Positions 1,523-56,692 of a stretch of DNA of 64,000 nt are shown piece by piece. The notes below the pieces were generated by a model, which searched no databases, was not told the DNA's origin, and saw only the letters and a program-made list of their open reading frames with translations. Origin of the DNA: Verrucomicrobiales bacterium (GTDB lineage: Bacteria; Verrucomicrobiota; Verrucomicrobiia; Verrucomicrobiales; DEV007); contig PAAG01000059.1 of assembly GCA_002698785.1 (NCBI GenBank), positions 496,001 to 560,000 of the forward strand. The letters are read 5' to 3'. Positions within the stretch are counted from its first letter, which is position 1, and every line of letters begins with the position of its first letter. A program made the position numbers and the translations under genes.

Positions 1523-2905
1523 ATGGCTTCTGAGGTATTCACTCGCCGCGCTACGATAGCTGCACCGCACACAGAACTTCGCGATTGGCACTTCCGATCG
1601 GGAGCCTTTGCACGCTTGAACCCACCATGGGAGCCCGTGGAGCACCTGTCTGGAACTTCCACCATCGAAGAAGGCAAGGAATTTGAGTTTCGAGTCGGGA
1701 GACCGCCTCTTTCAATGCGATGGAGAGGCAGCTACCGAATTACTCCAGACGGATTTGAAGATTCACAACTCAAAGGCCCCTTCAAGACGTGGAAGCACAA
1801 TCACATTTTCAAGCCTGGTGATGGCGACTCCAGCACTCTTACCGATCATGTTCATTTTGATTATCCTTTTGGTCCTCTCGGCAAGCTCTTCGCAAAACCA
1901 TTCGTTGAGAGAAAGCTGGATAGGATGTTCCGCTATCGGCACGAGGTAACCAAAAAAGACCTCAGGAGCCGCAGCGAAAACCCTCCTCCGCAGGGTTTGC
2001 ATATTCTGGTCACCGGTGCGACCGGATTGATCGGCTCGGCACTCTGCCCTTACTTGACTACTCAGGGCCACACCGTGCACCGAGTCACCCGTTCTCCATC
2101 CTCACCAGATGACATCTGCTGGGGACCTGACAAGGGTTCGATCCAGTGGCCAGAACATCTCAACATTGATGCCGCCATCCATCTCGCAGGGGAAAACGTG
2201 AGCGACGGAAGGTGGTCCTCTGGAAAGATGTCTGCCATTGAGCAAAGCCGAATCCACTCTACAAGAACAATCGTGAGAGCAATGCTCGAACGAGAAAACC
2301 CTCCCAAGGTATTGGTAAGCGCGTCAGGCTCCAGCATCTATCCTCAGAAAGCTGGCCCATACACGGAAGACGGGCCTCTCGGGGATCACTTCCTCGCCGA
2401 CGTTTGTAAGAAGTGGGAAGCAGAGACTCTACCTCTAGAGAGTCGGGGAATCCGAGTTGTCATGCCACGCATCGGAGCCGTCGCCTCTTACCAGGGTGGG
2501 ATCGTGAGGAAGATGCTTCCCCTCATCCAATTTGGATTGGGGGCAATTGCAGGCAGGGGGGACAACCATCTCTCCTGGATCGCCATAGACGACGTGGTCG
2601 ACCTTCTTCACCGATTTGTGTATGACGAAAGCTACGAAGGCCCGATCAATCTCGTATCGCCCAACCCAATCACCCAGGCGGATTTCGTCCAAACACTGGC
2701 ACGGGTCGTAAACAGGAAAGCACAAATCACTGTCCCTGAGTCTATCATCAAAATCCTGTATCCGGTAATGGCTGAAGAAACGATCCTGGCCGAAAACGCT
2801 GTTTTGCCCCTGGCTCTGCAGAGAAGCAGCTATGCTTTTCGCTATCCCGACCTTGCCTCTGCTCTAACCCACATTCTCGGTCGCAAACCAATCGACGCAT
2901 CCTAG
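1523..2905 (+). CDS. TIGR01777-family NAD(P)-dependent epimerase with N-terminal SRPBCC domain
   Basis: A 460-residue fusion. Residues about 1-145 look like a START/SRPBCC ligand-binding domain (TIAAPHTELRDWHFR at the start, then a basic stretch ending RMFRYRHEVT). Residues 160-460 are an extended SDR of the TIGR01777 (YfcH/SDR39U1, formerly SulA-like) family, with the nucleotide-binding motif VTGATGLIGSAL at about 163-174 and the family motif IHLAGENV. The C-terminal DUF1731-like tail is present. The reaction is unknown for the family. It is followed after 9 nt by a flavin amine oxidase; epimerase and amine oxidase genes of these types often sit together in bacteria. The ATG at 1523 is the first start in frame. 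Confidence 0.85.
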   Translation: MASEVFTRRATIAAPHTELRDWHFRSGAFARLNPPWEPVEHLSGTSTIEEGKEFEFRVGRPPLSMRWRGSYRITPDGFEDSQLKGPFKTWKHNHIFKPGDGDSSTLTDHVHFDYPFGPLGKLFAKPFVERKLDRMFRYRHEVTKKDLRSRSENPPPQGLHILVTGATGLIGSALCPYLTTQGHTVHRVTRSPSSPDDICWGPDKGSIQWPEHLNIDAAIHLAGENVSDGRWSSGKMSAIEQSRIHSTRTIVRAMLERENPPKVLVSASGSSIYPQKAGPYTEDGPLGDHFLADVCKKWEAETLPLESRGIRVVMPRIGAVASYQGGIVRKMLPLIQFGLGAIAGRGDNHLSWIAIDDVVDLLHRFVYDESYEGPINLVSPNPITQADFVQTLARVVNRKAQITVPESIIKILYPVMAEETILAENAVLPLALQRSSYAFRYPDLASALTHILGRKPIDAS

Positions 2906-2914
2906 CATTCACCC

Positions 2915-4150
2915 ATGGATTTCGAATACGATACCATCGTCATAGGTGCCGGACTCTCTGGTTTATCCTGTGCCGTGCAACTCCACGAAAATGGACTTCG
3001 TGTTCTCGTAGTGGACGCCGCCGATGCCGTCGGCGGGAGAGTTCGAACCGACAGCCACGATGGATTTCTTATGGATCGAGGTTTTCAAGTTTTTACGGAC
3101 TCCTACACTACGGCATCAAAATTTCTCGATTTGGAATCCCTCCAGCTGAATAAGTTTTTACCCGGCGCACTTGTCTGGAAAGAAGGAGCAATGAGAGAGG
3201 TGATGGACGTTTTCCGCTCTCCTCTTTCGCTCTTCAAAACCGCTTTCGGACCAGTCGGAAACCTCCGGGACAAATGGCTGGTCGGAAAATTGAGAGCCCA
3301 CGTTCTTTCCATCGACGAATCAGAAATCTGGGATTCCGAAGATATTTCGACAAACCAGTTCCTGAAAGACTTCGGGTTCTCGAAAGAAATGATCGATGAC
3401 TTTTTCCGTGGTTTTTACGGAGGAATCTTTCTCGAACCCGAACTGGCAACATCTGCTCGGATGTTTCAATTCACTTTCCGCAAGTTCGCACAAGGCAACG
3501 CATGCCTTCCAGCCGAAGGAATGGAAGCAATACCGCGACAACTGGCAAGCCGACTCCCTGCCGACTGCATCCGACTTGGGACAAAAGCAGTCAGTATCGA
3601 GGAGAACTCGGTCGTATTCGAAAACAAGACCCTCACCGCCAAAAGCATTGTCTGCGCTGCAGACTCCAATACTGCCGCCCAATTGACAGGACAGCCGACA
3701 TCCAAGGAGTGGCGGCAAACCTCTTGCCTATACTTTTCCGCAGATCAGCCTCCCTTTTCAGAATCTCTCATTCTATTGAAAGGCGACAGAGCAGGAGTCA
3801 TCAACAGCGTTTGTGTTCCGTCCTCCATTTCGTCTTCCTATGCCCCTGCAGGAAAATGCCTGGTCTCTGTTTCAATCGTTGGGGATGCGGCAGCCCAAGC
3901 GAACCTGCAGGAAACAGCAGAGAAAGAACTTCTCGACTGGTTCGGCGATGCAGTCTCAACCTGGACCCACCTGAAAACGTACCGGATCCCCCACGCACTC
4001 CCCTCCGTTCGGCCGAGCGAGCGGTCAACCACCGCACTCAGCGGGAGCCTCTTCCTTTGCGGCGATCACACCACGAATCCCTCTATCGATGGCGCCATAC
4101 GATCCGGCTTAAGCGCAGCGACATCTATACTTTCAGCTCATGGAAAGTGA
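2915..4150 (+). CDS. FAD-dependent amine oxidase / phytoene desaturase-like oxidoreductase
   Basis: A 411-residue flavoprotein. The N-terminal Rossmann dinucleotide motif is VIGAGLSGLSCAVQL, then the acidic ribose-binding VVDAADAVGGRVRT, the hallmark of the NAD(P)-binding_8 / amino_oxidase superfamily (protoporphyrinogen oxidase, phytoene desaturase and polyamine oxidase relatives). The C-terminal FAD contact region LFLCGDHTTNPSIDGAIRSG is also conserved. No signal peptide is seen, so it is cytoplasmic or membrane-associated. It lies 9 nt behind the epimerase and overlaps the DUF3253 gene by 11 nt, suggesting a three-gene transcription unit. The substrate is not determinable from sequence. 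Confidence 0.85.
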   Translation: MDFEYDTIVIGAGLSGLSCAVQLHENGLRVLVVDAADAVGGRVRTDSHDGFLMDRGFQVFTDSYTTASKFLDLESLQLNKFLPGALVWKEGAMREVMDVFRSPLSLFKTAFGPVGNLRDKWLVGKLRAHVLSIDESEIWDSEDISTNQFLKDFGFSKEMIDDFFRGFYGGIFLEPELATSARMFQFTFRKFAQGNACLPAEGMEAIPRQLASRLPADCIRLGTKAVSIEENSVVFENKTLTAKSIVCAADSNTAAQLTGQPTSKEWRQTSCLYFSADQPPFSESLILLKGDRAGVINSVCVPSSISSSYAPAGKCLVSVSIVGDAAAQANLQETAEKELLDWFGDAVSTWTHLKTYRIPHALPSVRPSERSTTALSGSLFLCGDHTTNPSIDGAIRSGLSAATSILSAHGK

Positions 4151-27134: not shown

Positions 27135-28865
27135 TCACAATCTTGGTTTCTCAGGCTTAATCGGCTCTGCCCAGGCTTGCGCTCCAGTGAGCTTCACTTT
27201 TCGTCGAAACACCTTCGCTCCACAGGTTGCATAAAGACTGTTTCCATGAAGGCAGACATTTGATGGATGCCTCTCACCAATCGGAGTAGGCACGATCAAA
27301 TGCACCCGCCCGGGCTGGTCGCAAATCTGCACTCCCATCGCTGTCGCAACCAGAAGCCAGCCCTCGTCGCTCACACACATGCCATCTGCGTGGCTCCGCA
27401 CATCTACAGAGGAAGGAGGCAGATGAAGGTGAAAATAGGGCTGAACAAAGGCCAGTCCCCCGTCATCGGTTCGCTGCGCAGACCAGACAAAACGACCCGA
27501 ATAATCTGCCGCATAGACCAGAGACTGGTCGGTGCTCAAAACCACCCCGTTCACTCCCGAAAACTCATCACTCGCAATCTTCGCCTCGTTGCCCGGCACT
27601 ATCTTCCAGATTGCTTTCTTCCTAGGTTCGGAAAAGTAGACCGTCCCATCGTGAGCCACCACGACATCGTTCGGTTTCACGTTCTCCACATGAACCGTCA
27701 TTTCACCGGTTTCGATGTTCCACGAAATCAAACGCCCCGGCTCTCTCTGGGCGCCGTACAGAGTCTTTCCATCAGGAGCAAAAGCCAGCCCGTTTGACCC
27801 TCCCGTATTCTCCTGGAACAGCAATTTCTTTCCGTCCGAGGATATTTTCCAGATCTTGCTTTCTTCAAGATCGGTGAAGAACAGGTCTCCCTCCCTGTTT
27901 ACCACAGGCCCCTCGGTAAAAGAATGGCCTTCACTGACTAGTTCCCAGTCTTCATCGGATTCGAGAAACCGGTTCGCTTCGCTCTCTGACTTATCCGGGT
28001 GAACTCGTACGACAGGGTCTTCCTTCCATCCTTTCCAAAGCCACCGCATGGCATCCGGGAAAATCGCGTTTCCATGTTTCCGGTTGTGTGATCCGTCTCC
28101 CCACTCGTGATTCACCTCGTATCCGGCCCACTGAAACGAGGCGAGCATATCCTGATTCGCCACCCACCAACTGCCGCAGTATATGTTATTGTCGTTCCGC
28201 CCGTCCTGGAGAAAGACACGGAGCGGCTTCGGTTCAAATTTCCTCACCAAGACAGGCAGTTCGTTCCCTCCTCGCAAACCAACATAAGTTCCGACGGTGG
28301 TAAAAACCCGACGAAACTGATCCGGACGCTGCCACGCCACATTGAATGCTGCGATCCCGCCCGAACTAGATCCGCACAATCCTCGTAAATTAGGATCCTC
28401 TGTTATCGAATAATCCTTTAACGCATGCGGAATCATCTCCTCCAGTAAAAACGTCGCGTAGCGATCCTCCACAGCATCATACTCGAAAGAACGGTTGTAT
28501 CGTGCCAGAGCATTCTCACCTGCGGCTGGAACTACCCCTGGATTAATGAAGAGCCCAATTGTCACCGGCATATCTCCCCGATCAATCAAATTGTCGAACG
28601 CAACGGGAACCGATTTCAAATAACTCATTCCATCCTGAAACACCATGAGTGCTGCAGGTTCTCCTTCGACATATTGAGCAGGAACGTACACACCAAAGTC
28701 CCTCTCTGTTCCCGGAAATATCTCGCTGTCAGAAAAAGTCCCCCTGATGACAGTGCCTTCAGGAATGCCCTCTTTCTTTTTCATATCCGGATGAACCGGA
28801 TATTCCTCATCAGCAGAGGCATAAATGGAAATAGACAGAACCAGCAGTACGAGACATCGAATCAT
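27135..28865 (-). CDS. Exported esterase (enterochelin esterase-like) fused to SMP-30/gluconolactonase
   Basis: A 576-residue two-domain secreted protein. After a signal peptide (ending YAS), residues about 25-300 form an enterochelin-esterase/esterase-D-like alpha/beta-hydrolase with FQDG, nucleophile in GLCGSSSGGIAAF, and WGDGSHNRKHG carrying the catalytic His. Residues about 300-570 form an SMP-30/gluconolactonase/LRE propeller (GSNGLAFAPDGKTLYG, NDVVVAHDGTVYFSEP, GVNGVVLSTDQ). This pairing suggests coupled ester and lactone hydrolysis on a sugar acid. It leads a minus-strand group with the EF-hand esterase 74 nt downstream. Confidence 0.88.
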   Translation of the reverse strand: MIRCLVLLVLSISIYASADEEYPVHPDMKKKEGIPEGTVIRGTFSDSEIFPGTERDFGVYVPAQYVEGEPAALMVFQDGMSYLKSVPVAFDNLIDRGDMPVTIGLFINPGVVPAAGENALARYNRSFEYDAVEDRYATFLLEEMIPHALKDYSITEDPNLRGLCGSSSGGIAAFNVAWQRPDQFRRVFTTVGTYVGLRGGNELPVLVRKFEPKPLRVFLQDGRNDNNIYCGSWWVANQDMLASFQWAGYEVNHEWGDGSHNRKHGNAIFPDAMRWLWKGWKEDPVVRVHPDKSESEANRFLESDEDWELVSEGHSFTEGPVVNREGDLFFTDLEESKIWKISSDGKKLLFQENTGGSNGLAFAPDGKTLYGAQREPGRLISWNIETGEMTVHVENVKPNDVVVAHDGTVYFSEPRKKAIWKIVPGNEAKIASDEFSGVNGVVLSTDQSLVYAADYSGRFVWSAQRTDDGGLAFVQPYFHLHLPPSSVDVRSHADGMCVSDEGWLLVATAMGVQICDQPGRVHLIVPTPIGERHPSNVCLHGNSLYATCGAKVFRRKVKLTGAQAWAEPIKPEKPRL

Positions 28866-31154: not shown

Positions 31155-33524
31155 TTATTCGTGTGATGAAGAGAACATTTCTCCATCACCCCGCCGCTTC
31201 TGGAACGGTGCGCTCTCGACTACTCCATAGAGAATCTGCCGAAGCGTAGCTCCATGAGTTTCTGCATCATCAACGATCTTATCGATAGTCGGCGCATCAA
31301 AATACTCAATTCCACGCCCGATCGCATACGTCAGCATCTTCTCAGTCAAAGCTCGGTGAAAATCACCATATCTCGACGTAGCCAGAACCCGACTTAGTTC
31401 CTTTGCATTCGTAAAATTCTCGCCAGTCATCAACTTCCCGGAAGCATCGATTGGATTTCCCTTTTCTTCATCTCTCCACGTTCCTATCTGGGTAAAGTTC
31501 TCAAGAGCCAGACCAATCGGGTCCATCCGGGCGTGGCATGAGGCACACATTTTCTCCTCGGCGTGCAGTTCGAGAAGTTTCCTCAAAGGCAGATTCTTGT
31601 TCGCACCCTTGGCTGAATCCTCCAGCGGCGGAACATCAGGAACAGCTGGTGGAGCTGGCGTCGCAAGGAAGTTCTCCAAAACAAACAAGCCACGCTTCAC
31701 AGGCGACGTCCGGGTTGGGTTCGAGGTCACGATATGAAAAGTTGCCTGGCTCAAAATTCCGCCACGCTTCGAATCTTTCGGCAAATCCACCTTACGCATC
31801 TGGCTCCCTTTCACCCCATCGATGTCATACCATTCGGCAAGAGGCTCATTCAGAAAGGTGTAATTGGCAGTCAAAAGCTCCGTTGCAGGCCTGTTCTCTC
31901 GGAGAACATAGGCAAAGAACTCCTCGCTTTCATAACGCATCGACTGCCGCAAACGTCCATTGAAAGTTCTCCGGGCTTCACCAAGATCCTTCTTACCCAA
32001 TGCCCTTCTCGCATCAATGTGGATCGTCTCAACGTCCCGCGCCTGGAGCCATTGCCCGACGAAATTCTTCACAAATCGATCAGACTTTTCGTCCTTCAGC
32101 ATTCGATCAATTTGCTGGCGCATATTCACCCGCAGTTTTCCTTCACCCGCAAGACGCATCAACTCCTCGTCAGGCAGCGAACTCCAGAGAAAATAGGACA
32201 ATCGCGAAGCAAGGGCATACTCATCGATCGGCACCGCCTTGTCCGGGTTGTTCGGCTCCGGCTGGATCTCTGCACGCATAAGAAATCGAGGGCTTACCAG
32301 CACTGCCTTAATCGCTTGGGCAATTCCGTGTTCAAAACGCTTTTCTGGCTGCTTGTCGACCATCCGAGCCAGAGCCACCAGTCTCGCCACCGTCTCATCG
32401 TCAACCGGGCGCCGGAAAGCCCGTGTCGCCACTCGGCGGAGAATCGTCTCCCTGTATGGATCACGCGCATCCTCATCCGCCGGAGGAGGGCCCTCCGAAA
32501 ACAGGTATCTCACATGCCAGGGATAGTCTTTGTGACTGCCATCGAGAGGCCCACGCATCCGGATTGCCTCCACATCGACCGCCAGTTTGTTCTCACCTTT
32601 CTGAGGCGGGTCGCCGGTCTCTGTAGCCACCCATATCTCCTGCTCGCGCCCCTTCTTGAGTTTGGACTTTGTCTTCAGCGTAATCTTCGAGGAATTATCC
32701 CAACCCAGTTTCCGTTCTGCGAGAACCTTGTCTCCCACCCCGATTTGCAGAGTCGCCGTCTGCGAAGTCGCCGCATCCGACCCCTTGATCTGGAACTCTA
32801 CTTTTAACTCGTACTCACCCTCGTAGCTGACCCACGGCTCGTACTTCATCTTGCGCGCGTGATCGAACGGCATCCAGTCCACTGACCAGTCACCACTGCG
32901 GTCATCTTTGAAAGCGCGCTTATCCAGCCACCATTCCACAATCTGGGGTCCATCGAGAGGAACCGCGTCTTCGACGACCTCTTCCGCCGCCTCCAGATAT
33001 TTCTCCATCAAGAGCGGGGAAATACTCAGCACATCACCAATGGTATCAAATCCGTAGCCTGTGTCATCCACGGGAAGTAAATCCTCAACCTTGATATCGA
33101 TGTTGAAAAGGTCCTTCACCGAATAGCGATACTCCTCACGATTCAGGCGCCGAATCGTCACACGGCCCGGGTCGGGATTCTCGCTATCGATCTCGAAAAC
33201 CTTGCTCTCGATAAAAGCGAGAACCTCCTGCCGCTCTTTACTGGAAAACTGCGGTTTGTCCGAAGGAGGCATCAGATTACTCCGGACATTTTTCCAGATC
33301 TCATACCAAACCTCAAAATTATCCAAGTGCTCCTCGACGGTCTTGAAATCGTCCATCGCAAAGTCCCCTTTATCCATACCATCACCATGGCAATCGTAAC
33401 AGAAGTCCATCAGCAGCGGCTCAACCTTGTCAAAAGCAGCCACAGCATCATTTGCACGCACAGCAGCACCACCCGCCACAAAGGCGAGGCTCAGAAGAAG
33501 AATTGGGAGAAATTGACGATTCAT
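31155..33524 (-). CDS. DUF1587/1595/1592/1588/1585 protein with planctomycete-type cytochrome c
   Basis: About 789 residues from the ATG at 33524, which gives a signal peptide ending VRA; an in-frame extension to 33593 would place residues before it. The first heme site is C42-Y-D-C-H46 followed by GDGMDKGDF, as in the PSCyt1-like domain. DUF1587 (RLNREEYRYSVKDLF), DUF1595, DUF1592 (DEYALASRLSYFLWSS), DUF1588 (RGGILSQATFHIVTSNPTRTSP) and DUF1585 follow, with a second CASCH at about residue 660. This architecture is typical of Planctomycetes and Verrucomicrobia and usually pairs with a DUF1552 protein, absent here. Probably a periplasmic redox or sugar-oxidising enzyme. Confidence 0.93.
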   Translation of the reverse strand: MNRQFLPILLLSLAFVAGGAAVRANDAVAAFDKVEPLLMDFCYDCHGDGMDKGDFAMDDFKTVEEHLDNFEVWYEIWKNVRSNLMPPSDKPQFSSKERQEVLAFIESKVFEIDSENPDPGRVTIRRLNREEYRYSVKDLFNIDIKVEDLLPVDDTGYGFDTIGDVLSISPLLMEKYLEAAEEVVEDAVPLDGPQIVEWWLDKRAFKDDRSGDWSVDWMPFDHARKMKYEPWVSYEGEYELKVEFQIKGSDAATSQTATLQIGVGDKVLAERKLGWDNSSKITLKTKSKLKKGREQEIWVATETGDPPQKGENKLAVDVEAIRMRGPLDGSHKDYPWHVRYLFSEGPPPADEDARDPYRETILRRVATRAFRRPVDDETVARLVALARMVDKQPEKRFEHGIAQAIKAVLVSPRFLMRAEIQPEPNNPDKAVPIDEYALASRLSYFLWSSLPDEELMRLAGEGKLRVNMRQQIDRMLKDEKSDRFVKNFVGQWLQARDVETIHIDARRALGKKDLGEARRTFNGRLRQSMRYESEEFFAYVLRENRPATELLTANYTFLNEPLAEWYDIDGVKGSQMRKVDLPKDSKRGGILSQATFHIVTSNPTRTSPVKRGLFVLENFLATPAPPAVPDVPPLEDSAKGANKNLPLRKLLELHAEEKMCASCHARMDPIGLALENFTQIGTWRDEEKGNPIDASGKLMTGENFTNAKELSRVLATSRYGDFHRALTEKMLTYAIGRGIEYFDAPTIDKIVDDAETHGATLRQILYGVVESAPFQKRRGDGEMFSSSHE

Positions 33525-33677
33525 CAGCAAATTGAGCCGAAACCAGCTCTGGAGGAATATACGCTCCGATACACCCTTGGACACCCCACGCAAGAACGTG
33601 TTGAAACAATGACCCGGACGTTTTTGCGCAATTCCGCAATATTTGAGCGGAAAATCCCCTGCAGCCCTGATCGCTCC

Positions 33678-35768
33678 CTATTTTAGAGGCCTCACCGACA
33701 CCGCCTTCAGCCTCCACTGCCCTGGCGTTTCCGTTCCGTAATGGGGGGCACTGCTCAGCAGCAACTGCTCGCCCTTTTTGACCACACCGATATCACTCAG
33801 CACACCGGATTGATCCTTTTCGTCGATATCCGCATCGACACAGTAAATCGCCAAAGGAGCGTCTTTTCCGACTTGGTAAAATCCTCCGCACTGCCCGTTC
33901 CCGGCGACGATGGCCACATGCTCGACGATCACATCCTGATCAAAAGTAATCGTCAACGTCTCACCTTCATCCACCTGCTTGAAACTCCCTCCAGTCACTC
34001 CCATACCGCGGCCATTAAAGTCAAAGCCCCCGGACGAAGCACGAATCTCCATTTTCACTTTCCCCAACATGCTCTCAAGAAGCCCCCCTTTTACCGAAAC
34101 CTCACTATCACTGGAGGCAAAATCCACGAACAAACTTTCCTCTGACGAAATATCCGCCAACCGATGCCCTCCGGCATTCCTGTGATGCTCCGCCACTTTC
34201 TTTAGGTGATCGACCAATTGCTCCAACTCAGGCTCACTGATTCGATTATTCTCCTCCTTCTGGTCGGATGAAAGGTCATACAACTCCATTGGAACAGCCG
34301 TCCCCATCCGCAGCAGACTGGCATCAAAAAACATCTTCCACTGTCCTTCGAAGATCTTTCCATCGACCTCCGGCGAATCCATTCTCAATGCCGATACAGC
34401 CGGGTCATCCTTTGCCTCTTTATGATCGTGGGCAAAAATCGGCGGACGTGTCAGGGTCTCTCCATCTCTCCAGGCAGGCAATACACTGATGCTGTCTTCG
34501 GCTCCCTTCTCTCCTTGGGTTCGATCAGGCAGATCTGATTTCAGAATCTCGGCAAACGTCGCAAACATGTCGGTGTGACACATCACTGTGGTATTACTCA
34601 CACCAGGGCCACTGGCATCACCGTCGCCGATTCCTGGCCCTGTCACGAGGAACGGCACGCGATGTCCCCCTTCGTATGTCGATCCTTTGTGGCTTCGAAA
34701 CGGCCCGGTGGCCACATCGCTGTTTTTCTCTGCCCCGTTGTCGCTGGTAAAGACAACGATCGTTGTTTCAATCAATTTCTTTCCCGGGTTCCGTGGGTCA
34801 TCATTCGCCTCAAGCCAATCGAGGAAACGCCCCAGGATCAAATCATTCTCGTAGATGAAATCGTGCCGCAGATCCATCAACTCCCCGGCCTTCGTCTTCG
34901 CCGCTCCGCGACTCGGCTTTCCATCGATATCTGTGTCGGGAGTGTAGGGACTGTGATTCGATACCGATGGATAATACAAAAAAAAGGGCTTCTCGGCGTT
35001 CTTCCCACCCTCCAGATGAGTCGACAGATACTCAATCGCGAAGTCAGAATGGCGACCACCTAACTCTGTCAGAAAATACGCATCGTCTCCCTTTCTCACG
35101 ATCTCCTTTCCATCACCCGTAGCTCCGATTGCAACTCGGTCGTGTATGTGCCCGGGCCCGACTGTCTGATTCGGTCCGTTCTTTGCCTTCTTCTTCTTTC
35201 CCTTACCGGCAGCATCCGGCCCGGATGTTCCGTGAGACCGCGACGTGAATCTCGCAAAATCAAAACCATGATCGACTGGGGTATCGAATAGCGGCTTTGT
35301 CAGGTCCGCATCATCCCAGCCTGACGCCGGTTTTCCATCGCTACGGGTGTATCTCAAGCCGACGTGCCATTTTCCGGTGATGGCCGTTCCATATCCCGCA
35401 TCCTGAAACAACGTGGCCAGAGTCGGCCTGTCCCGCTCAATCATCGGATCTCCCTGAGAGCCGAACAACACCCAATGCTTCAATCGATTCCTCCACGGAT
35501 ACCGCCCTGTCAGTAGTCCATACCGAGTAGGAGAACATCTCGACGACGGAGTATGGGCATCCGTAAATCGCACCCCCATCCTCGCGAGGCGTTCCATATT
35601 CGGCGTAGCCAACTGCACCTCATCTGCATTCCCAGTGAAATCCTGGTAGGCACTCGTGTCCCCCATCCCCATGTCATCCGCCATCATGAAAATCACGTTT
35701 GGGCGATCGATCGCATTACAGACAATCGAAAGGGCCAAAAAGGTCAGGAGACAAAAAGGGAGTTTCAT
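33678..35768 (-). CDS. Secreted sulfatase with C-terminal beta domain
   Basis: About 696 residues from the ATG at 35768 (a TTG sits one codon upstream). Signal peptide ending CNA; metal-binding MMADDMGMGDTSAY; canonical formylglycine motif C78-S-P-T-R (numbered from the ATG); GKWHVGLRY; FTSDNGAEKNS. A low-complexity Gly/Lys segment (GKGKKKKAK) lies in the middle. Residues about 545-696 form an extra domain with FDFNGRGMGVTGG and EHVAIVAGNGQCGG, reminiscent of a carbohydrate-binding beta-sandwich. It follows the methyltransferase and sulfatase genes on the same strand. Confidence 0.92.
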   Translation of the reverse strand: MKLPFCLLTFLALSIVCNAIDRPNVIFMMADDMGMGDTSAYQDFTGNADEVQLATPNMERLARMGVRFTDAHTPSSRCSPTRYGLLTGRYPWRNRLKHWVLFGSQGDPMIERDRPTLATLFQDAGYGTAITGKWHVGLRYTRSDGKPASGWDDADLTKPLFDTPVDHGFDFARFTSRSHGTSGPDAAGKGKKKKAKNGPNQTVGPGHIHDRVAIGATGDGKEIVRKGDDAYFLTELGGRHSDFAIEYLSTHLEGGKNAEKPFFLYYPSVSNHSPYTPDTDIDGKPSRGAAKTKAGELMDLRHDFIYENDLILGRFLDWLEANDDPRNPGKKLIETTIVVFTSDNGAEKNSDVATGPFRSHKGSTYEGGHRVPFLVTGPGIGDGDASGPGVSNTTVMCHTDMFATFAEILKSDLPDRTQGEKGAEDSISVLPAWRDGETLTRPPIFAHDHKEAKDDPAVSALRMDSPEVDGKIFEGQWKMFFDASLLRMGTAVPMELYDLSSDQKEENNRISEPELEQLVDHLKKVAEHHRNAGGHRLADISSEESLFVDFASSDSEVSVKGGLLESMLGKVKMEIRASSGGFDFNGRGMGVTGGSFKQVDEGETLTITFDQDVIVEHVAIVAGNGQCGGFYQVGKDAPLAIYCVDADIDEKDQSGVLSDIGVVKKGEQLLLSSAPHYGTETPGQWRLKAVSVRPLK

Positions 35769-35848
35769 CAATCGCTATCGAACCGAATATTCGATCTCGC
35801 GTCCATCAAAGAGGTTGGCGTAATCGGACAACTCTTTGTGATTTCCGG

Positions 35849-36547
35849 TCACGCTTCTGCCTTCCGAATCGCCAGCCATGACATCCTGTAGGTCAGATCG
35901 GGTGGAAGCCGCTCCATCGTAAGTTCTCGCTTCGCACACTGCTCCTCAACCCACTCGGTGCTGTGGTGAATGCACCCTACGGACATGGATTCATGACTGC
36001 TACCTACCCACGTATCGCCGTCATAGTCGGGATGTTCTTCGTTTGCCGGGAGGTATGTCGTCAGGAATACTGCACCTGGTTTCGCGTCGCGCACAAAGGA
36101 ATCAAGCGTGGCCTCAATGCCCCACTTGGCAGCGTGGGTCCAGATTGAATAGGCCAGGAAGAAATCGAATTTCTCCCCGAAGACCGAGGTATTGAAATCC
36201 GGATTGGTATCGAACTTCGGCACCTTCGCTGCGAGAACCTCTTCTTCCAGGATTCGCAATTTCCCGTTTTCCAACCTTCCCTCGTGCGGTTCGATTCCAA
36301 AATAGCAACCCGGGTTCAAAAAATGAATCAACCAGTATCCGGCACGCAACACACCGCAGCCGATATCCACCACCTTTGAGTCCGGCATCAATCCGGCTCG
36401 AAGCAGATAGATAAATTGCTCCCGTCCGCCGCATTCATAATGCTCGGGCTGGAATCCAATGAACTCCTCTTCGCTCAGCTTTCGGGCTTTGTCGTCCAAC
36501 GTCATATCGAAAATCTCACTCCTCGACCACTCCTGCTCTTCTCGCAT
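35849..36547 (-). CDS. Class I SAM-dependent methyltransferase
   Basis: About 232 residues. The SAM-binding motif I is VVDIGCGVLRAGYWLI, followed by the acidic FGIEPHEGRLENG; EFIGFQPEHYECGGREQF precedes it. No signal peptide is seen. The ATG at 36547 lies inside the end of the upstream sulfatase (32-nt overlap); an alternative ATG at 36505, 14 codons later, has GAGGAG 13 nt upstream and avoids the overlap. The substrate is unknown; related proteins occur near glycan biosynthesis genes. Confidence 0.82.
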   Translation of the reverse strand: MREEQEWSRSEIFDMTLDDKARKLSEEEFIGFQPEHYECGGREQFIYLLRAGLMPDSKVVDIGCGVLRAGYWLIHFLNPGCYFGIEPHEGRLENGKLRILEEEVLAAKVPKFDTNPDFNTSVFGEKFDFFLAYSIWTHAAKWGIEATLDSFVRDAKPGAVFLTTYLPANEEHPDYDGDTWVGSSHESMSVGCIHHSTEWVEEQCAKRELTMERLPPDLTYRMSWLAIRKAEA

Positions 36548-37904
36548 CCAAATTCATCTCTTCCTGAAACATCACAGCCATGCCTCGCAGTCGCTTGATC
36601 AGATCCTTCTTCCGAATGGGCTTCGTCTCACCTGGGTCGGACTCTAAATCATATATCGAAAGGCCGGGATTCAAATACATCTTGTAGCTCCCTGACCGAA
36701 CCGCCGAGAGAGCCCCCTGCGCCCCATGATAGAAGAAGGCATTGGTATATTCCTCTCTGTCAAAATAGGGCTCCCATTCGAGCCCCTGACTCCATCGCCG
36801 ACGAAGTGGAACCGCTGCATTCAAAGACAACTCCTCTTCCGGCGATGGCACTGCATTCACTTCCCCTGTCAGCAGAGGAAGAATATCCCTTCCATCAATT
36901 ACTGGATGGTCCTCTCCGATTTCAATGCCCGCAAAACTCGCGAGTGTAGGATACCAGTCCATCGCACTTACGATCTCGGAACACTCGTATCCTGACCGAA
37001 TCCCCAAGCCAGGTCCCCACGCAATCGCCGGGACTCGAATCCCACACTCCCACGTCGTCAGTTTTCGGCCCTGCATCGGCTGATCAGGGTTACGCCCCGG
37101 ACCTCTTCCATTGTCCGACGCGTAGATTACCACGGTATTTTTATCCAGCCCCAGTTCCCCTAACTTGTCCACCAATCGCCCCACGTGGAAATCCAGTTCC
37201 TGGATCGCGTCGCCATATTCTCCCCACTCGGATGTCCCCTGAAATTCTTCACTAACTCCCAGCGGATTGTGCAGCATCGTATGAGGCAGGTAGAGAAAGA
37301 ACGGCTCTTCTTTGTTCTTCTCGATAAACTGGATCGCCTCGTCAGTGTAGACTCGAGTCAGCTCTGCGGGATCGGCAGGACGCTTCACCACTTCCCCGTT
37401 TCTGATCAGGGGCACACCTTCCTCGCCGTAGTAGATAACCTCCACTGGATCGAGGTTCGAATACAATCCGAAGTGATAGTCGAAACCCTGCGCATCAGGA
37501 AGGAAGGGACCATCATCTCCGAGATGCCATTTCCCAATACAAGCTGTCGCATACCCATTGGCCTTGAACAGCTCTCCCATCGTAACCTCCTCCGGATGCA
37601 GTCCGCGTTTCGCATCTTCCCGTTGTACCCAGACCTCCATCCCGACACGACGCGGATAGCACCCTGTCAAAAGCCCCGCCCGTGACGGACTACAGATCGG
37701 CGAAGCGGCATAGTAATCCGTAAACCGAATCCCCTCTGTGGCGAGAGCATCAATGCGAGGAGTCTTCACCTCCGTCGCGCCGTAGCATCCAAGGTCGTAG
37801 TAGCCCTGATCATCGATGAAGATGACGATCACATTTGCCTTCTCGGCAGCGAAAGAACTCGCGGCCAGAAGATAGAGGGCGATTAAGAATAGGGGGCTTC
37901 GCAT
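36516..37904 (-). CDS. Secreted sulfatase (arylsulfatase A-like)
   Basis: A 462-residue sulfatase with a signal peptide ending FAAE. Metal-binding IFIDDQGYYDLGCYG, formylglycine motif C-S-P-S-R at about residue 72 (PICSPSRAGLLTGCYP), GKWHLGDDGPFLP, YASDNGRGPGRNP and GRKLTTWECGIRVP are conserved; typical of the uncharacterised S1 subfamilies of marine Planctomycetes and Verrucomicrobia. A 380-nt AT-rich intergenic region with an inverted repeat precedes it. Confidence 0.92.
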   Translation of the reverse strand: MRSPLFLIALYLLAASSFAAEKANVIVIFIDDQGYYDLGCYGATEVKTPRIDALATEGIRFTDYYAASPICSPSRAGLLTGCYPRRVGMEVWVQREDAKRGLHPEEVTMGELFKANGYATACIGKWHLGDDGPFLPDAQGFDYHFGLYSNLDPVEVIYYGEEGVPLIRNGEVVKRPADPAELTRVYTDEAIQFIEKNKEEPFFLYLPHTMLHNPLGVSEEFQGTSEWGEYGDAIQELDFHVGRLVDKLGELGLDKNTVVIYASDNGRGPGRNPDQPMQGRKLTTWECGIRVPAIAWGPGLGIRSGYECSEIVSAMDWYPTLASFAGIEIGEDHPVIDGRDILPLLTGEVNAVPSPEEELSLNAAVPLRRRWSQGLEWEPYFDREEYTNAFFYHGAQGALSAVRSGSYKMYLNPGLSIYDLESDPGETKPIRKKDLIKRLRGMAVMFQEEMNLDARRAGVVEE

Positions 37905-51860: not shown

Positions 51861-52862
51861 ATGCCCCGAGAGTATCCAGAGGTTCCCTTTTCCGCTTCCC
51901 CCGTTGAGCGACGCTTGCGGTCGGCGGAGGAAGAGAACCCTACGGATTCTCCCTCCATGCTTCTCGAACTATTGGAGTGGCTTGAGGAAGGAGGGCGATG
52001 GTATGCCGGTTACTCCGATCTGGCAGGTCTGGCTGAAATTCTCCCCGACTTTGCCCTCCCTGTCGTGTATCAGCTGCATCGCTGCGATTTTTGTGCCTTC
52101 GCGAAGCGGGACGTGATTGGGCTCTCGGACTGCGTTAAGAACAAGCATGCGGTAAATCGACTCGTCATTTCACGCCAAGAAGGTTTGGAGGGTCAATGTC
52201 ATCTCGGCATCACCGACCTTGCCGAACCGCTCCTTCTCAACGGCGACGTGGTCGGGATTTTCTACCTGGGGTCGATCATTGACGCAGAGAACGAAGAAGC
52301 TTCGAAAGATCGCCTTCTTCGCTATTGCAACCGGCGAAAACTGGATGCGTCGGTATTTCTGGAACAATGGCGAAAACTTCCACGGATCGACACGAGGGAG
52401 ATCGAGAAAATGCGGTCCCGCCTGCAACTCGTCGCTCGGATCGCAACTCGACTCGCAGCCCCCGCCGAATCAGTTCCCGATCTGGTGAGCAAGAATTCCA
52501 CGCTCGCCGGAGTGATCTGGCAGAAACGCCGGAACCGCACTCCAACCACTCTGCAAAAGGCAATGGAATACGTGAACGGTCAATACAGAGAATCGCTCCG
52601 CCTCAACGACGTCGCCGATCACCTTGGAATCCGACCGGATTCACTGGGGTCACTATTCCGTAAATACACAGACGGAACGATGGCGGACTACCTCGCCTCG
52701 GTGCGAATCCGTCACGCATGTGAGCTTTTGAAATCCGGTCGATTTTCGGGAGGGGAAATTGCCCTCCTGGTAGGCTTTACGGATCAGTCTCAGTTCAGTA
52801 AAACGTTCAAGAAAGAGACGGGCCTCACTCCCACCGCCTACACGCGTAGGATGATGGCGTAG
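51861..52862 (+). CDS. AraC-family regulator with PocR-type sensor domain
   Basis: A 333-residue transcription factor. Residues about 40-180 have a PocR-like ligand-binding pattern with conserved cysteines (HRCDFCAFAK, LSDCVKNK, GQCHLGITDLAEPLLLNG, VVGIFYLGSI). Residues about 228-333 are an AraC helix-turn-helix pair (YVNGQYRESLRLNDVADHLG and LLVGFTDQSQFSKTFKKETG). PocR-type domains sense propanediol-like metabolites or sugars. It is divergent from treZ (75-nt gap) and 80 nt upstream of the sulfatase/propeller gene, so it probably controls that gene and possibly treZ. Confidence 0.87.
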   Translation: MPREYPEVPFSASPVERRLRSAEEENPTDSPSMLLELLEWLEEGGRWYAGYSDLAGLAEILPDFALPVVYQLHRCDFCAFAKRDVIGLSDCVKNKHAVNRLVISRQEGLEGQCHLGITDLAEPLLLNGDVVGIFYLGSIIDAENEEASKDRLLRYCNRRKLDASVFLEQWRKLPRIDTREIEKMRSRLQLVARIATRLAAPAESVPDLVSKNSTLAGVIWQKRRNRTPTTLQKAMEYVNGQYRESLRLNDVADHLGIRPDSLGSLFRKYTDGTMADYLASVRIRHACELLKSGRFSGGEIALLVGFTDQSQFSKTFKKETGLTPTAYTRRMMA

Positions 52863-52942: not shown

Positions 52943-55900
52943 ATGAATCCCCGACTATTTTTCACTTTTCTTGCGCCCTTGCTCTTGGCCCAGAGCCTCG
53001 TTGCCGACGAGCCTGCGCCCGATCACCCGAACATTCTTTTCATTTTCACCGACGACCAACGTTGGGATGCCATGGGATGCGCGGGCAATGATCTGATTCG
53101 AACTCCAAATCTCGATTCCATTGCAGCACGAGGAACTCGCTTTTCTAATGCCTTTGTCACTCTTTCAATCTGCTCCCCCAGCCGTGCTGCAGCTCTTACG
53201 GGGCGATACAACAGTGAGAATGGTGTCACGGTTGTGGGAAAGGGAACGCTGAATTCTGACGAGGTGACTTTTGCCCACCTACTAAAAAAGGCTGGCTACC
53301 AAACCGGCGTGACCGGCAAGTGGCATCTCGGAAATACGCCGGCAGATTGCGGATTTGATTTTTCGAGCACCTGCTACAGCAACGGAACCTGGTATGGCCG
53401 AGATTTTATCCGCGACGACGGAAGCAAAGTCGTCGCAGAGGGATTCGTCGATGACTTTGTCGCCGAGGAATCGATTCGCTTTCTGAATGAGGCCAGCGAG
53501 AAAGACGAGCCATTTGTCCTTTGGATGTGCACCCAGGTGCCGCACATGGACGATAACCACAGCTGGCCGCCTAGCGAAGAGTATCTTTCGAGCTACGAAG
53601 CTGCGAACATGCCTCTCGCCGAAACGTGGCAGGACGATCTACAGGGGAAACCGGAGTATCTGAAAGAGTCACGCTCACGCACCCAAGCTCTCTCCTATGG
53701 CTATAACAAGGCGGAAGCGATCCGGGAACACAACCGCGAATACTATGCTTCCGTCGAGCAAGTGGATGCCTCGATCGGGAAGGTGCTCGAAGAACTGGAA
53801 CGCCTTGAACTGAAAGACAACACCTGGATTTTCTTCATGGGAGACAATGGGTGGATGATGGGCGAGCACGGATTCACGAGCAAAGTGTTGGCCTATGAGG
53901 AGTCCATCCGAGTGCCCATGATTGTTGCGGGACCGCAAACTGAACCCGGTCTCGTCGAGGAACTTACGTTAGGTATTGACCTTACCGCCTCCATCCTTGA
54001 GGTGGCAGGGGTAGAGATCCCTGAAAACATGCACGGGCGCAGTGTGATCGGTCTGGTCAGCGGAAACGATGTGAATGACTGGAGAAATGATTTTCTCTAT
54101 GAAGCCCCATCTCCCCAGCTTGGTTCCCAGCCTCTCTGGGCTGTACGAAATGACCGCTGGAAATACATTGAGACGAAAACTTCAGAAGGATCATTCCAGG
54201 AACTTTATGATCTTGAGAACGATCCTCTCGAAACCACCAATCTCGCTCAAGACAAACCTGAAAAGGCGGATGCTCTTGCCGACCGGCTTAATCAGCTAAA
54301 GAAAGAAGTAGAAGAAAAATCCGCGCACTCCAGCACGTCAAAAGAGTATCCATCTATCAGCGGCATCTATCCCCACCTCTCCTTTTTCAATGACGAGGGA
54401 GAGTGCGGCACCGGAGCAGTCGTTCCGTGGGCCGATCGACTCTGGGCCGTGACTTATGCTCCTCATAAGCCGAAGGGCTCTTCGGATAAACTCTACGAAA
54501 TCACTCCAGATCTGGATATGACAGTTCGGGAGGAGTCGATCGGAGGCACGCCTGCGAACCGAATGATTCACACGGAATCTGATCAGCTCTTCATCGGACC
54601 CTATGCCATCGATAAAGAGCGGAATGTTAGAGCGATTCCGTATTCGGAGATGTTCGGCCGCCCGACTGCGAATGCACGTCACCTCACCGATCCGGCAAAC
54701 AAGATCTACTACACCTCGATGGAGGAAGCCCTTTACGAGGTTGATGTCCACTCGCTCGAAGTGACTCCTATCTTTTACGACGAAGCAGACAAAGGGAAGG
54801 AACCCAAGGCGGGTCTTCCCGGTTATCATGGAAAAGGATCTTACACCGGGCACGACCGCTTGGTCTATGCCAACAACGGCGAACACGGCCGCGAAGCGCA
54901 GCAGAATCCCTTCGTGGAATCGGGTGTGCTAGCGGAATGGTTCGGCGAGGGCGAGTATCAGGTTGTCCGCCGAAACCAGTTCACTGAGGTCACAGGTCCC
55001 GGAGGCATTTACGGAAACAGCGATCCTGACAAGGATCCCATCTGGTGTGTTGGCTGGGACGCTCGATCTCTCATCCTGATGGTCCTCGATGAAAGCGGAT
55101 GGAATCGCTATCGCCTTCCAAAGGCCAGCCACAGCTATGACGGCGCGCACGGATGGAATACGGAATGGCCCCGCATTCGTGAAATTGGAGAAGGTGACGA
55201 TCTCCTGATGACGATGCATGGAATGTTCTGGAAGTTTCCCAAGACTTTCACTCCGGGTCACTCGGCTGGCATTTCTCCCCGTTCGACGTATCTGAAAGTG
55301 ATCGGCGATTTCTGCCGTTGGAACGACAAAGTTGTCTTTGGTTGCGACGACACCGCCAACAAAGAATTTCTCAACAAGCGGAAAGCAAAAGGAGAGATCG
55401 CAGCTCCGCAATCACAGTCAAACCTGTGGTTCGTCGAGCAAGAACAGATCGATCACTTCGGACCTGTTATCGGGCGAGGTTCGGTGTGGCTTGATGAGGC
55501 GGTGAAGGCGGACGAACCTTCCGACGCTTTTCTCTTCTCTGGATTTGAAAAACGTGGCGTGCACCTCTCAGCAGACAGCCCCGCGACCTTCCGGTTTGAG
55601 ATCGATAAAAAAGGAAATGGAGAATGGACTGTGTTGGAAGAGGTAAACGTGGATGGCGATCTCTGGCATTCATTTGATGCATCCGCTTCCGGAGCATGGA
55701 TTCGAGTTTCCTCGTCGGCAGACCTGAACAAAGCGACGGCCCTGTTTGCTTTTGGAAACCAGGACAGGCGGGAAAGCTACCCGCAACCCGCCAAGTTTGC
55801 TGGACTTGCTTCCCCGGACGCAACGAATGTCACCGGTGGAGTCATTCGCCCTCGTGACAAGAACAAGCGCAATCTCCACTTTGCCGCGATCGATTCCGCA

Positions 55901-56692
55901 GGAGACGTTGGCTACTACGAAATGGATGCCGATTTGAAGCTACGCCATGTCGATAGCAACGGTGCCCAAAGTTGGCTCAAGAAACACGCTGCTATCCCCT
56001 CTCGTGAAGGCGTAATCGAGGTGGATGACGCTTCCGTGATTTACACCGACGACAAAGGTAACCGCTTCCGTCTGCCGAAAAACGATGCGTTCACTCTGCC
56101 CGGCCCCGTCGGATTCCCCCGCCTCTGCCGCGAGGTGGCTACGGAGCGCGACCTGTTCAACTGCCATGGGACGTTCTTCGAGCTTCCCGCTGAGAATGCT
56201 GGCGGATTCGGCAGGGTGCGTCCTGTCACCACCCACGGACGCCGCATTTCGGACTATTGCAGCTATCGAGGACTGTTCGTTGTCTCCGGTATTGAGGGAG
56301 ATGCCCCGACCGATAACGATCACATCATCCGTAGCGACGACGGCAAAACCGCCCTCTGGGTCGGCGCGATCGACGACATCTGGGAACTCGGAAAACCAGT
56401 CGGAAACGGCGGCCCATGGAAAGACACTCCTGTGGAAGATGGCACCATTTCCGATCCGTACCTGATGACCGGTTATGACAAGAAGACGCTGACTCTCGAA
56501 GCCGACTCCGCCATTTCAGTAAAGGTAGAGATCGACATTGATGGCACAGGGAATTGGAAGCAATGGAAGACTGTATATCTGTCGGCAGGAACTCCTCTTA
56601 CGGAAGTTTTCCCTGAGGAATTTCAGGCGTATTGGGTTCGATTTGTGAGCGAAGGGAGCGCAAAAGCGACAGCACAACTCGCTTACGAATAG
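52943..56692 (+). CDS. Sulfatase fused to a large propeller-like domain with an internal duplication
   Basis: A 1249-residue secreted protein. After a signal peptide (ending LVAD) residues 25-460 are a sulfatase: FTDDQRWDAMGC metal site, canonical C77-S-P-S-R, GKWHLGN, FMGDNGWMMGEHGF. From residue 469 begins a separate domain of about 780 residues starting YPSISGIYPHLSFFND, with GECGTGAVVPWADRLW and GTPANRMIH, a type otherwise known to me as a standalone secreted propeller protein. Two parts of it align with each other: residues about 751-938 and 1068-1249 (MHGMFWKFP versus CHGTFFELP; FGPVIGRG versus LGKPVGNG; SGFEKRGVHLSAD versus TGYDKKTLTLEAD). The fusion implies that desulfation and binding or cleavage of the same glycan go together. 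It is preceded by an AraC gene. Confidence 0.85.
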   Translation: MNPRLFFTFLAPLLLAQSLVADEPAPDHPNILFIFTDDQRWDAMGCAGNDLIRTPNLDSIAARGTRFSNAFVTLSICSPSRAAALTGRYNSENGVTVVGKGTLNSDEVTFAHLLKKAGYQTGVTGKWHLGNTPADCGFDFSSTCYSNGTWYGRDFIRDDGSKVVAEGFVDDFVAEESIRFLNEASEKDEPFVLWMCTQVPHMDDNHSWPPSEEYLSSYEAANMPLAETWQDDLQGKPEYLKESRSRTQALSYGYNKAEAIREHNREYYASVEQVDASIGKVLEELERLELKDNTWIFFMGDNGWMMGEHGFTSKVLAYEESIRVPMIVAGPQTEPGLVEELTLGIDLTASILEVAGVEIPENMHGRSVIGLVSGNDVNDWRNDFLYEAPSPQLGSQPLWAVRNDRWKYIETKTSEGSFQELYDLENDPLETTNLAQDKPEKADALADRLNQLKKEVEEKSAHSSTSKEYPSISGIYPHLSFFNDEGECGTGAVVPWADRLWAVTYAPHKPKGSSDKLYEITPDLDMTVREESIGGTPANRMIHTESDQLFIGPYAIDKERNVRAIPYSEMFGRPTANARHLTDPANKIYYTSMEEALYEVDVHSLEVTPIFYDEADKGKEPKAGLPGYHGKGSYTGHDRLVYANNGEHGREAQQNPFVESGVLAEWFGEGEYQVVRRNQFTEVTGPGGIYGNSDPDKDPIWCVGWDARSLILMVLDESGWNRYRLPKASHSYDGAHGWNTEWPRIREIGEGDDLLMTMHGMFWKFPKTFTPGHSAGISPRSTYLKVIGDFCRWNDKVVFGCDDTANKEFLNKRKAKGEIAAPQSQSNLWFVEQEQIDHFGPVIGRGSVWLDEAVKADEPSDAFLFSGFEKRGVHLSADSPATFRFEIDKKGNGEWTVLEEVNVDGDLWHSFDASASGAWIRVSSSADLNKATALFAFGNQDRRESYPQPAKFAGLASPDATNVTGGVIRPRDKNKRNLHFAAIDSAGDVGYYEMDADLKLRHVDSNGAQSWLKKHAAIPSREGVIEVDDASVIYTDDKGNRFRLPKNDAFTLPGPVGFPRLCREVATERDLFNCHGTFFELPAENAGGFGRVRPVTTHGRRISDYCSYRGLFVVSGIEGDAPTDNDHIIRSDDGKTALWVGAIDDIWELGKPVGNGGPWKDTPVEDGTISDPYLMTGYDKKTLTLEADSAISVKVEIDIDGTGNWKQWKTVYLSAGTPLTEVFPEEFQAYWVRFVSEGSAKATAQLAYE

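Follow-up and report, generated by a model that had tools for sequence, protein, structure and literature searches.

Among described systems, P36 of Formosa agariphila (GH78|S1_25, PDB 6hr5) is a hybrid enzyme of ulvan degradation that carries an S1 sulfatase and a second carbohydrate-active domain in one chain, and both of its domains act in consecutive steps (PMC8511951). The partner of the P36 sulfatase is an α-L-rhamnosidase of a known family, GH78. A second point of reference is provided by the propeller enzymes of GH145, PL42, PL24, and PL25 (the BNR_4 superfamily), which are seven-bladed, measure ∼410 to 520 residues in their solved forms, and have one face that bears conserved charged and aromatic residues; the hydrolase site of GH145 is located on the posterior face of the propeller (PMC8377490).

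We analyzed a 64,000-nucleotide stretch of DNA from a Verrucomicrobiales bacterium (contig PAAG01000059.1, positions 496,001 to 560,000 of the forward strand; hereafter the window), which encodes an S1 sulfatase joined to a large C-terminal module. The architecture is that of a P36-like sulfatase-CAZyme hybrid, with the glycan activity of the second domain being putative, but the partner in the window is an undescribed combination of a propeller and jelly rolls rather than a member of a known family. On balance, and with modest confidence, we favor the reading that the fusion is a secreted bifunctional glycan-processing enzyme whose C-terminal module belongs to a hitherto undescribed family of propellers.

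Organization of the fusion gene and properties of its sulfatase half

A single frame without internal stops (52943–56692, + strand) encodes a protein of 1249 residues that comprises, in order, a signal peptide, an S1 sulfatase, and a 781-residue module (residues 469–1249). The predicted signal peptide (residues ∼1–21, MNPRLFFTFLAPLLLAQSLVA, 52943–53005, +) was read from the sequence, with the inferred cleavage site preceding the residues DE. The S1 (FGly) sulfatase domain spans residues 29 to 453 (53027–54301, +), as delimited by Pfam matches, motif positions, and PDB relatives, and is followed by a linker of residues ∼454 to 470 (about EVEEKSAHSSTSKEYPS, 54302–54352, +) that corresponds to the gap between the end of the Pfam domain and the start of module homology. 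There is practically no chance that this arrangement is an assembly or annotation artifact: the stop-free frame lies within a contig of 810 kb, and its architecture is shared by an independent 290-kb contig from a member of the Verrucomicrobiia (JAUICH010000007.1, locus L046), where the sulfatase and the module are 70% and 66% identical, respectively, to those of the window. Because the architecture recurs, the assembly error that had been raised as a possible objection to the fusion is ruled out.

The preliminary description of this locus recognized an intact sulfatase with a CSPSR motif, and profile matches bear this out. PF00884 matches residues 29 to 357 (E 2e-56) and SGSH_C matches residues 307 to 453 (E 9e-28). 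The motifs FTDDQR at 35 (TDD at 36–38), CSPSR at 77–81, GKWH at 125, and GDNG at 300 supply the key residues C77, D37/D38, D301/N302, and K126/H128; thus, the catalytic and metal-site motifs are in place, and the N-terminal half combines the C-x-P-x-R sequence and the metal-binding Asp/Asn residues of S1 enzymes within a sulfatase domain. The same genome encodes a member of the FGE-sulfatase family (C35:55301–56329, E 5e-75) as a candidate maturase, and no match to a radical SAM (rSAM) maturase was found above the cut-off in the genome. According to the family profile, the closest solved sulfatases are 7p24 and 5g2v (E ∼1e-82), which we take to be the S1_11 sulfatases BT3177 and BT4656, along with the P36 sulfatase, which aligned over its whole length (E 1e-81). 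BT3177 and BT4656 are nearest by profile yet are single-domain proteins, and their GlcNAc-6-sulfate specificity should not be assumed for the window sulfatase.

An AraC-type regulator with a PocR sensory domain (Pfam PocR and HTH_18 matches; 51861–52862, +) is encoded 80 bp upstream of the fusion. One could speculate that the PocR domain points to propanediol or another deoxy-sugar product.

A search detected ∼135 sulfatases in the genome. Their fusions, which were taken from the sulfatase search table and read one by one, include a 1309-residue sulfatase-GH2 protein (L151:322–4248, G000:C2:600865–602070), a 1026-residue sulfatase-GH43 protein (L152:271–3348, G000:C2:641109–643654) that neighbors a 1182-residue GH127-sulfatase protein (L152:3294–6839), a 755-residue sulfatase with a BNR_2 propeller (L153:2–2266), and two pairings of a sulfatase with a 3-keto-disaccharide hydrolase, one in each order (L155:591–3176 and L157:3308–5491). 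Such partners indicate that glycan-active domains are usual companions of sulfatases in this organism. Elsewhere in the window, four further sulfatases are encoded at about 10.9 to 24.7 kb, two more sulfatase genes lie close together (33678–37904, −) beside a PSD/PSCyt cytochrome gene (31155–33593), and a putative esterase is fused to an SMP-30/gluconolactonase-like propeller (27138–28865, −).

Structure and conservation of the C-terminal module

Residues 469 to 1249 gave no match in Pfam, NCBIfam, PHROGs, or the PDB sequences when searched either as a single sequence or as a 72-sequence profile, and we found no description of the module in the openly available literature. A significant match to a Pfam propeller was present in 0 of 59 family members; the weak Pfam matches among these members were one to CBM_35_2 and two to F5_F8_type_C. 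Homology to a non-carbohydrate family was looked for as evidence against a carbohydrate role and was not found.

The AlphaFold2 (AF2) model of the module had a mean pLDDT of 95 and a pTM of 0.94. Its first part (module residues 1–370; 54347–55456, +) is modeled as a beta-propeller of seven four-stranded blades, as was also indicated by a fold search, which returned many seven-bladed propellers tied at Z ∼18 over ∼275 residues with no family ahead. Virginiamycin B lyase (2z2o) was among the best of these matches that are enzymes (Z 18.0, 271 residues, 3.9 Å, 12% identity) but was tied with unrelated WD40 propellers, so it represents a general fold match only. When module residues 371 to 781 were folded alone, the pLDDT was 96 and the model displayed two jelly rolls around a shorter propeller-like part. 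These comprise a CBM-like jelly-roll beta-sandwich (module residues 375–470; 55469–55756, +; AF2 and fold search), the second, shorter propeller-like part (module residues 471–685; 55757–56401, +; AF2 strands and internal repeat), and a second jelly-roll beta-sandwich (module residues 686–781; 56402–56689, +; AF2, internal repeat, and fold search). The earlier characterization of the entire module as propeller-like therefore holds for module residues ∼1 to 370 and needs amendment for the remaining ∼410. An internal repeat relates module residues 244–469 to 564–780 (28.6% identity, E 3e-18), with 564–685 repeating 244–370. The best fold match of the jelly rolls was prophage YomS (6i5o, Z 11.4), and CBM29 and CBM6 were matched at Z ∼7. 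Foldseek gave a weak match to the surface glycan-binding protein 7kwb, and a search of viral predicted structures returned just generic low-TM matches.

Conservation is concentrated in the propeller, for which the mean identity is 68% versus 44 to 48% for the jelly rolls, and it is strongest on the DA/BC face. When the blade strands were assigned from the AF2 model, the anterior (DA/BC) loops averaged 72% identity compared to 51% for the posterior (AB/CD) loops (p 6e-5, a value that is indicative since neighboring residues are not independent). Polar positions with at least 97% conservation numbered 23 in the anterior loops versus 1 in the posterior loops. Invariant charged residues and histidines of the propeller are (module numbering) H40, R72, H75, R105, H161, K163, D265, E273, R276, and H291. 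In the modeled structure, this pattern suggests that the canonical, anterior face of the propeller houses an active site or binding site, unlike the posterior hydrolase site of GH145.

The preliminary description had proposed GH145 and PL42 as families worth comparing, and a distant membership of the module in the GH145/PL42/PL24/PL25 superfamily would account for the shared seven-bladed fold and for the conserved His, Arg, and Tyr residues at or close to this face, such as also occur in PL24, PL25, and PL42 on the anterior side. A BNR_4 profile built here, which recovers the GH145, PL42, PL25, and PL24 structures, nevertheless aligned to the module with an hhalign probability of 1% (E 0.05) over just 24 columns. 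The module is also far larger than the solved enzymes and differs from them by its two jelly rolls and partial repeat. These four families were outside the 50 matches listed in the fold search, which is uninformative either way. The profile comparison and the 0 of 59 members that have a significant Pfam propeller match make such kinship very improbable, and for GH145 the anterior location of the conserved residues also differs from that of the hydrolase site. The suggested link to GH145 and PL42 is therefore not supported. PL22 oligogalacturonate lyase (Pectate_lyase22) was also rejected as a parent of the module (hhalign probability 0.7%), and the SGL/Vgb-like protein of the window gave no signal as a relative.

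Distribution of the module

Among 387 genomes sampled from the phylum to which the window belongs, 72 contain the module. A species-genome collection yielded 416 candidate stretches that encode a relative, of which the best 80 were retained; these derive from Verrucomicrobiota, Planctomycetota, and Bacteroidota. The free-standing form is the rule, with nearly all related ORFs encoding ∼790 to 880 residues and no sulfatase. The nearest module, at locus L031 (77% identity), follows directly upon a signal peptide. Judged from these sequences, the module is normally a stand-alone, apparently secreted protein that is common in Verrucomicrobiota, Planctomycetota, and Bacteroidota, in agreement with the earlier view that it is usually seen alone. 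An example from Spirosoma oryzicola is encoded after SusC/SusD genes with no sulfatase, and its product is annotated merely as hypothetical.

Several members depart from the typical form. A short version of ∼465 to 485 residues, found in six genomes (G078, G128, G163, G039, G045, and G131), matches at both ends and is missing the middle (about residues 340–660). Two members have other fusion partners, namely a GH2 enzyme (L116:1211–5524) and a protein whose match to M14 peptidase is weak and below threshold (L117:1990–5109). The long open frames at L006/L118 and L111 seem to owe their length to read-through from upstream and not to additional domains, and a small N-terminal domain is possible at L063.

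Sulfatase and module as neighboring genes

Sulfatases orthologous to that of the window (44–49% identity) directly adjoin the module gene in seven loci of Bacteroidota, five from Cyclobacterium and one each from Flammeovirgaceae and a Prolixibacteraceae MAG. SusC and/or SusD genes are present in five of the seven, and FAD oxidoreductases of PF12831 occur in several. Across 26 genomes picked for carrying the module, which contain up to ∼180 sulfatase candidates each, an ortholog (E ≤ 1e-75) was identified in eight, with one copy per genome that was fused to or adjoined the module every time. This repeated pairing provides good support for functional coupling of the sulfatase and the module, and the arrangement of adjoining genes, mostly within SusC/SusD loci, indicates that both very probably serve one glycan.

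When approached from the sulfatase side, the ortholog is rare, occurring in 4 of 374 genomes of the phylum of the window and in 2 of 395 genomes of the other phylum, counts that include the center genomes. Of the four independent genomes that bear it, three have the module elsewhere (G053, G214, and G128, the last having the short form only, apart from the sulfatase), and one has none. The latter, a member of Bacteroidota (G646), possesses a SusC-SusD-sulfatase-FAD-oxidoreductase locus in which SusC and SusD were read from position and sequence. Together with the many module-bearing genomes that are devoid of the sulfatase, this locus demonstrates that neither part strictly needs the other. 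The link between sulfatase and module is strong, though not obligatory.

Over all loci, the neighbors of module genes include SusC/SusD (also in the absence of a sulfatase), the sulfatase, FAD oxidoreductases, and once GH20. This setting, along with the fusion of other sulfatases of the genome to GH2, GH127, and GH43, accords with the glycan-related role initially envisaged for the module. In one SusC/SusD locus with a module, the PF12831 FAD oxidoreductase is itself fused to a GH20 hexosaminidase (L092:10755–14375). In seven loci of Cyclobacterium, the gene that immediately follows the module encodes a conserved protein of ∼367 residues with no Pfam match (L078:8412–9512 and homologues).

The frequent position of the module gene directly after SusD bears on whether the module is an enzyme, as surface glycan-binding proteins often are encoded there. 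The module could be a non-catalytic glycan-binding protein in which the propeller and the CBM-like jelly rolls serve to retain the polymer and all chemistry is left to the sulfatase, and both the resemblance of the jelly rolls to CBM29/CBM6 and the Foldseek match to 7kwb are in keeping with such a function. Against it, the most conserved part is the propeller with its many invariant charged residues and histidines, not the jelly rolls, and conservation of this strength over three phyla would more often be seen in an active site than in a binding platform. We regard the purely binding role as rather unlikely.

Recurrence and history of the fusion

The second fusion, at L046, also has an AraC/PocR regulator homologue upstream (2798–3772, 54% identity to that of the window), and no other locus examined has one at that identity level. 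L031 shares a GH13 gene upstream with the window (62% identity), and the orthologous sulfatase is absent from its genome. A tree of the modules placed the sequence of the window as sister to that of L031 with 99% support, and a clade of both fused modules, as expected from a single exclusive origin of the two fusions, was rejected (AU p 0.0005). Since the fused modules are not sisters, either the fused state arose or disappeared on more than one occasion or the module portion was exchanged. The shared regulator suggests that the two fusions derive from a common cassette, and the data are compatible with histories in which the fusion was gained or lost or in which conversion replaced the module.

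The tree implies that the fused state is evolutionarily unstable, as might be anticipated if genes that were once adjacent for other reasons had simply lost an intervening stop and the two parts acted on different substrates. Most module-bearing genomes being without the sulfatase fits that scenario as well. Such an incidental fusion is, however, difficult to reconcile with the repeated placement of the same sulfatase type beside the module in distant Bacteroidota, mostly in SusC/SusD loci, or with the retention of the fusion at 66 to 70% identity in L046 next to the same type of regulator, and we consider it improbable.

Proposed function and significance

For the favored bifunctional enzyme, we infer propeller catalysis, a sequence of steps, and a type of substrate as follows. 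The N-terminal S1 sulfatase would strip a sulfate ester from a sulfated glycan, either a polysaccharide or an oligosaccharide, on which the C-terminal module would act as well. The anterior pocket of the propeller would most likely cleave or otherwise modify the chain, as a glycosidase or a lyase, and the two jelly rolls would help to hold it. The fusion would thereby keep two consecutive steps together, as in the ulvan hybrid. Weighing against this proposal, the propeller residues are only candidate catalytic residues, the module has no characterized homologue, and the conserved face might serve in binding instead. More tentatively, and with less than even confidence, we suggest that the propeller is the founding type of a new polysaccharide-cleaving family, widespread in Verrucomicrobiota, Planctomycetota, and Bacteroidota, that acts on a sulfated glycan along with a dedicated sulfatase and, in several loci of Bacteroidota, a PF12831 FAD oxidoreductase.

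Although it belongs to no Pfam, NCBIfam, or PHROGs family and lacks a close structural relative, the module was detected in roughly one in five of the genomes sampled from the phylum and also in Bacteroidota, where its gene often lies near SusC/SusD. Its fusion to a sulfatase and the repeated pairing of the two as neighbors offer a direct, testable clue to its role. Once found, the sulfate ester preferred by the sulfatase should point to the substrate of the module, given that both would act on one glycan. A catalytic module would mean a further family of propeller enzymes for the breakdown of sulfated polysaccharides in a group that is very rich in sulfatases.
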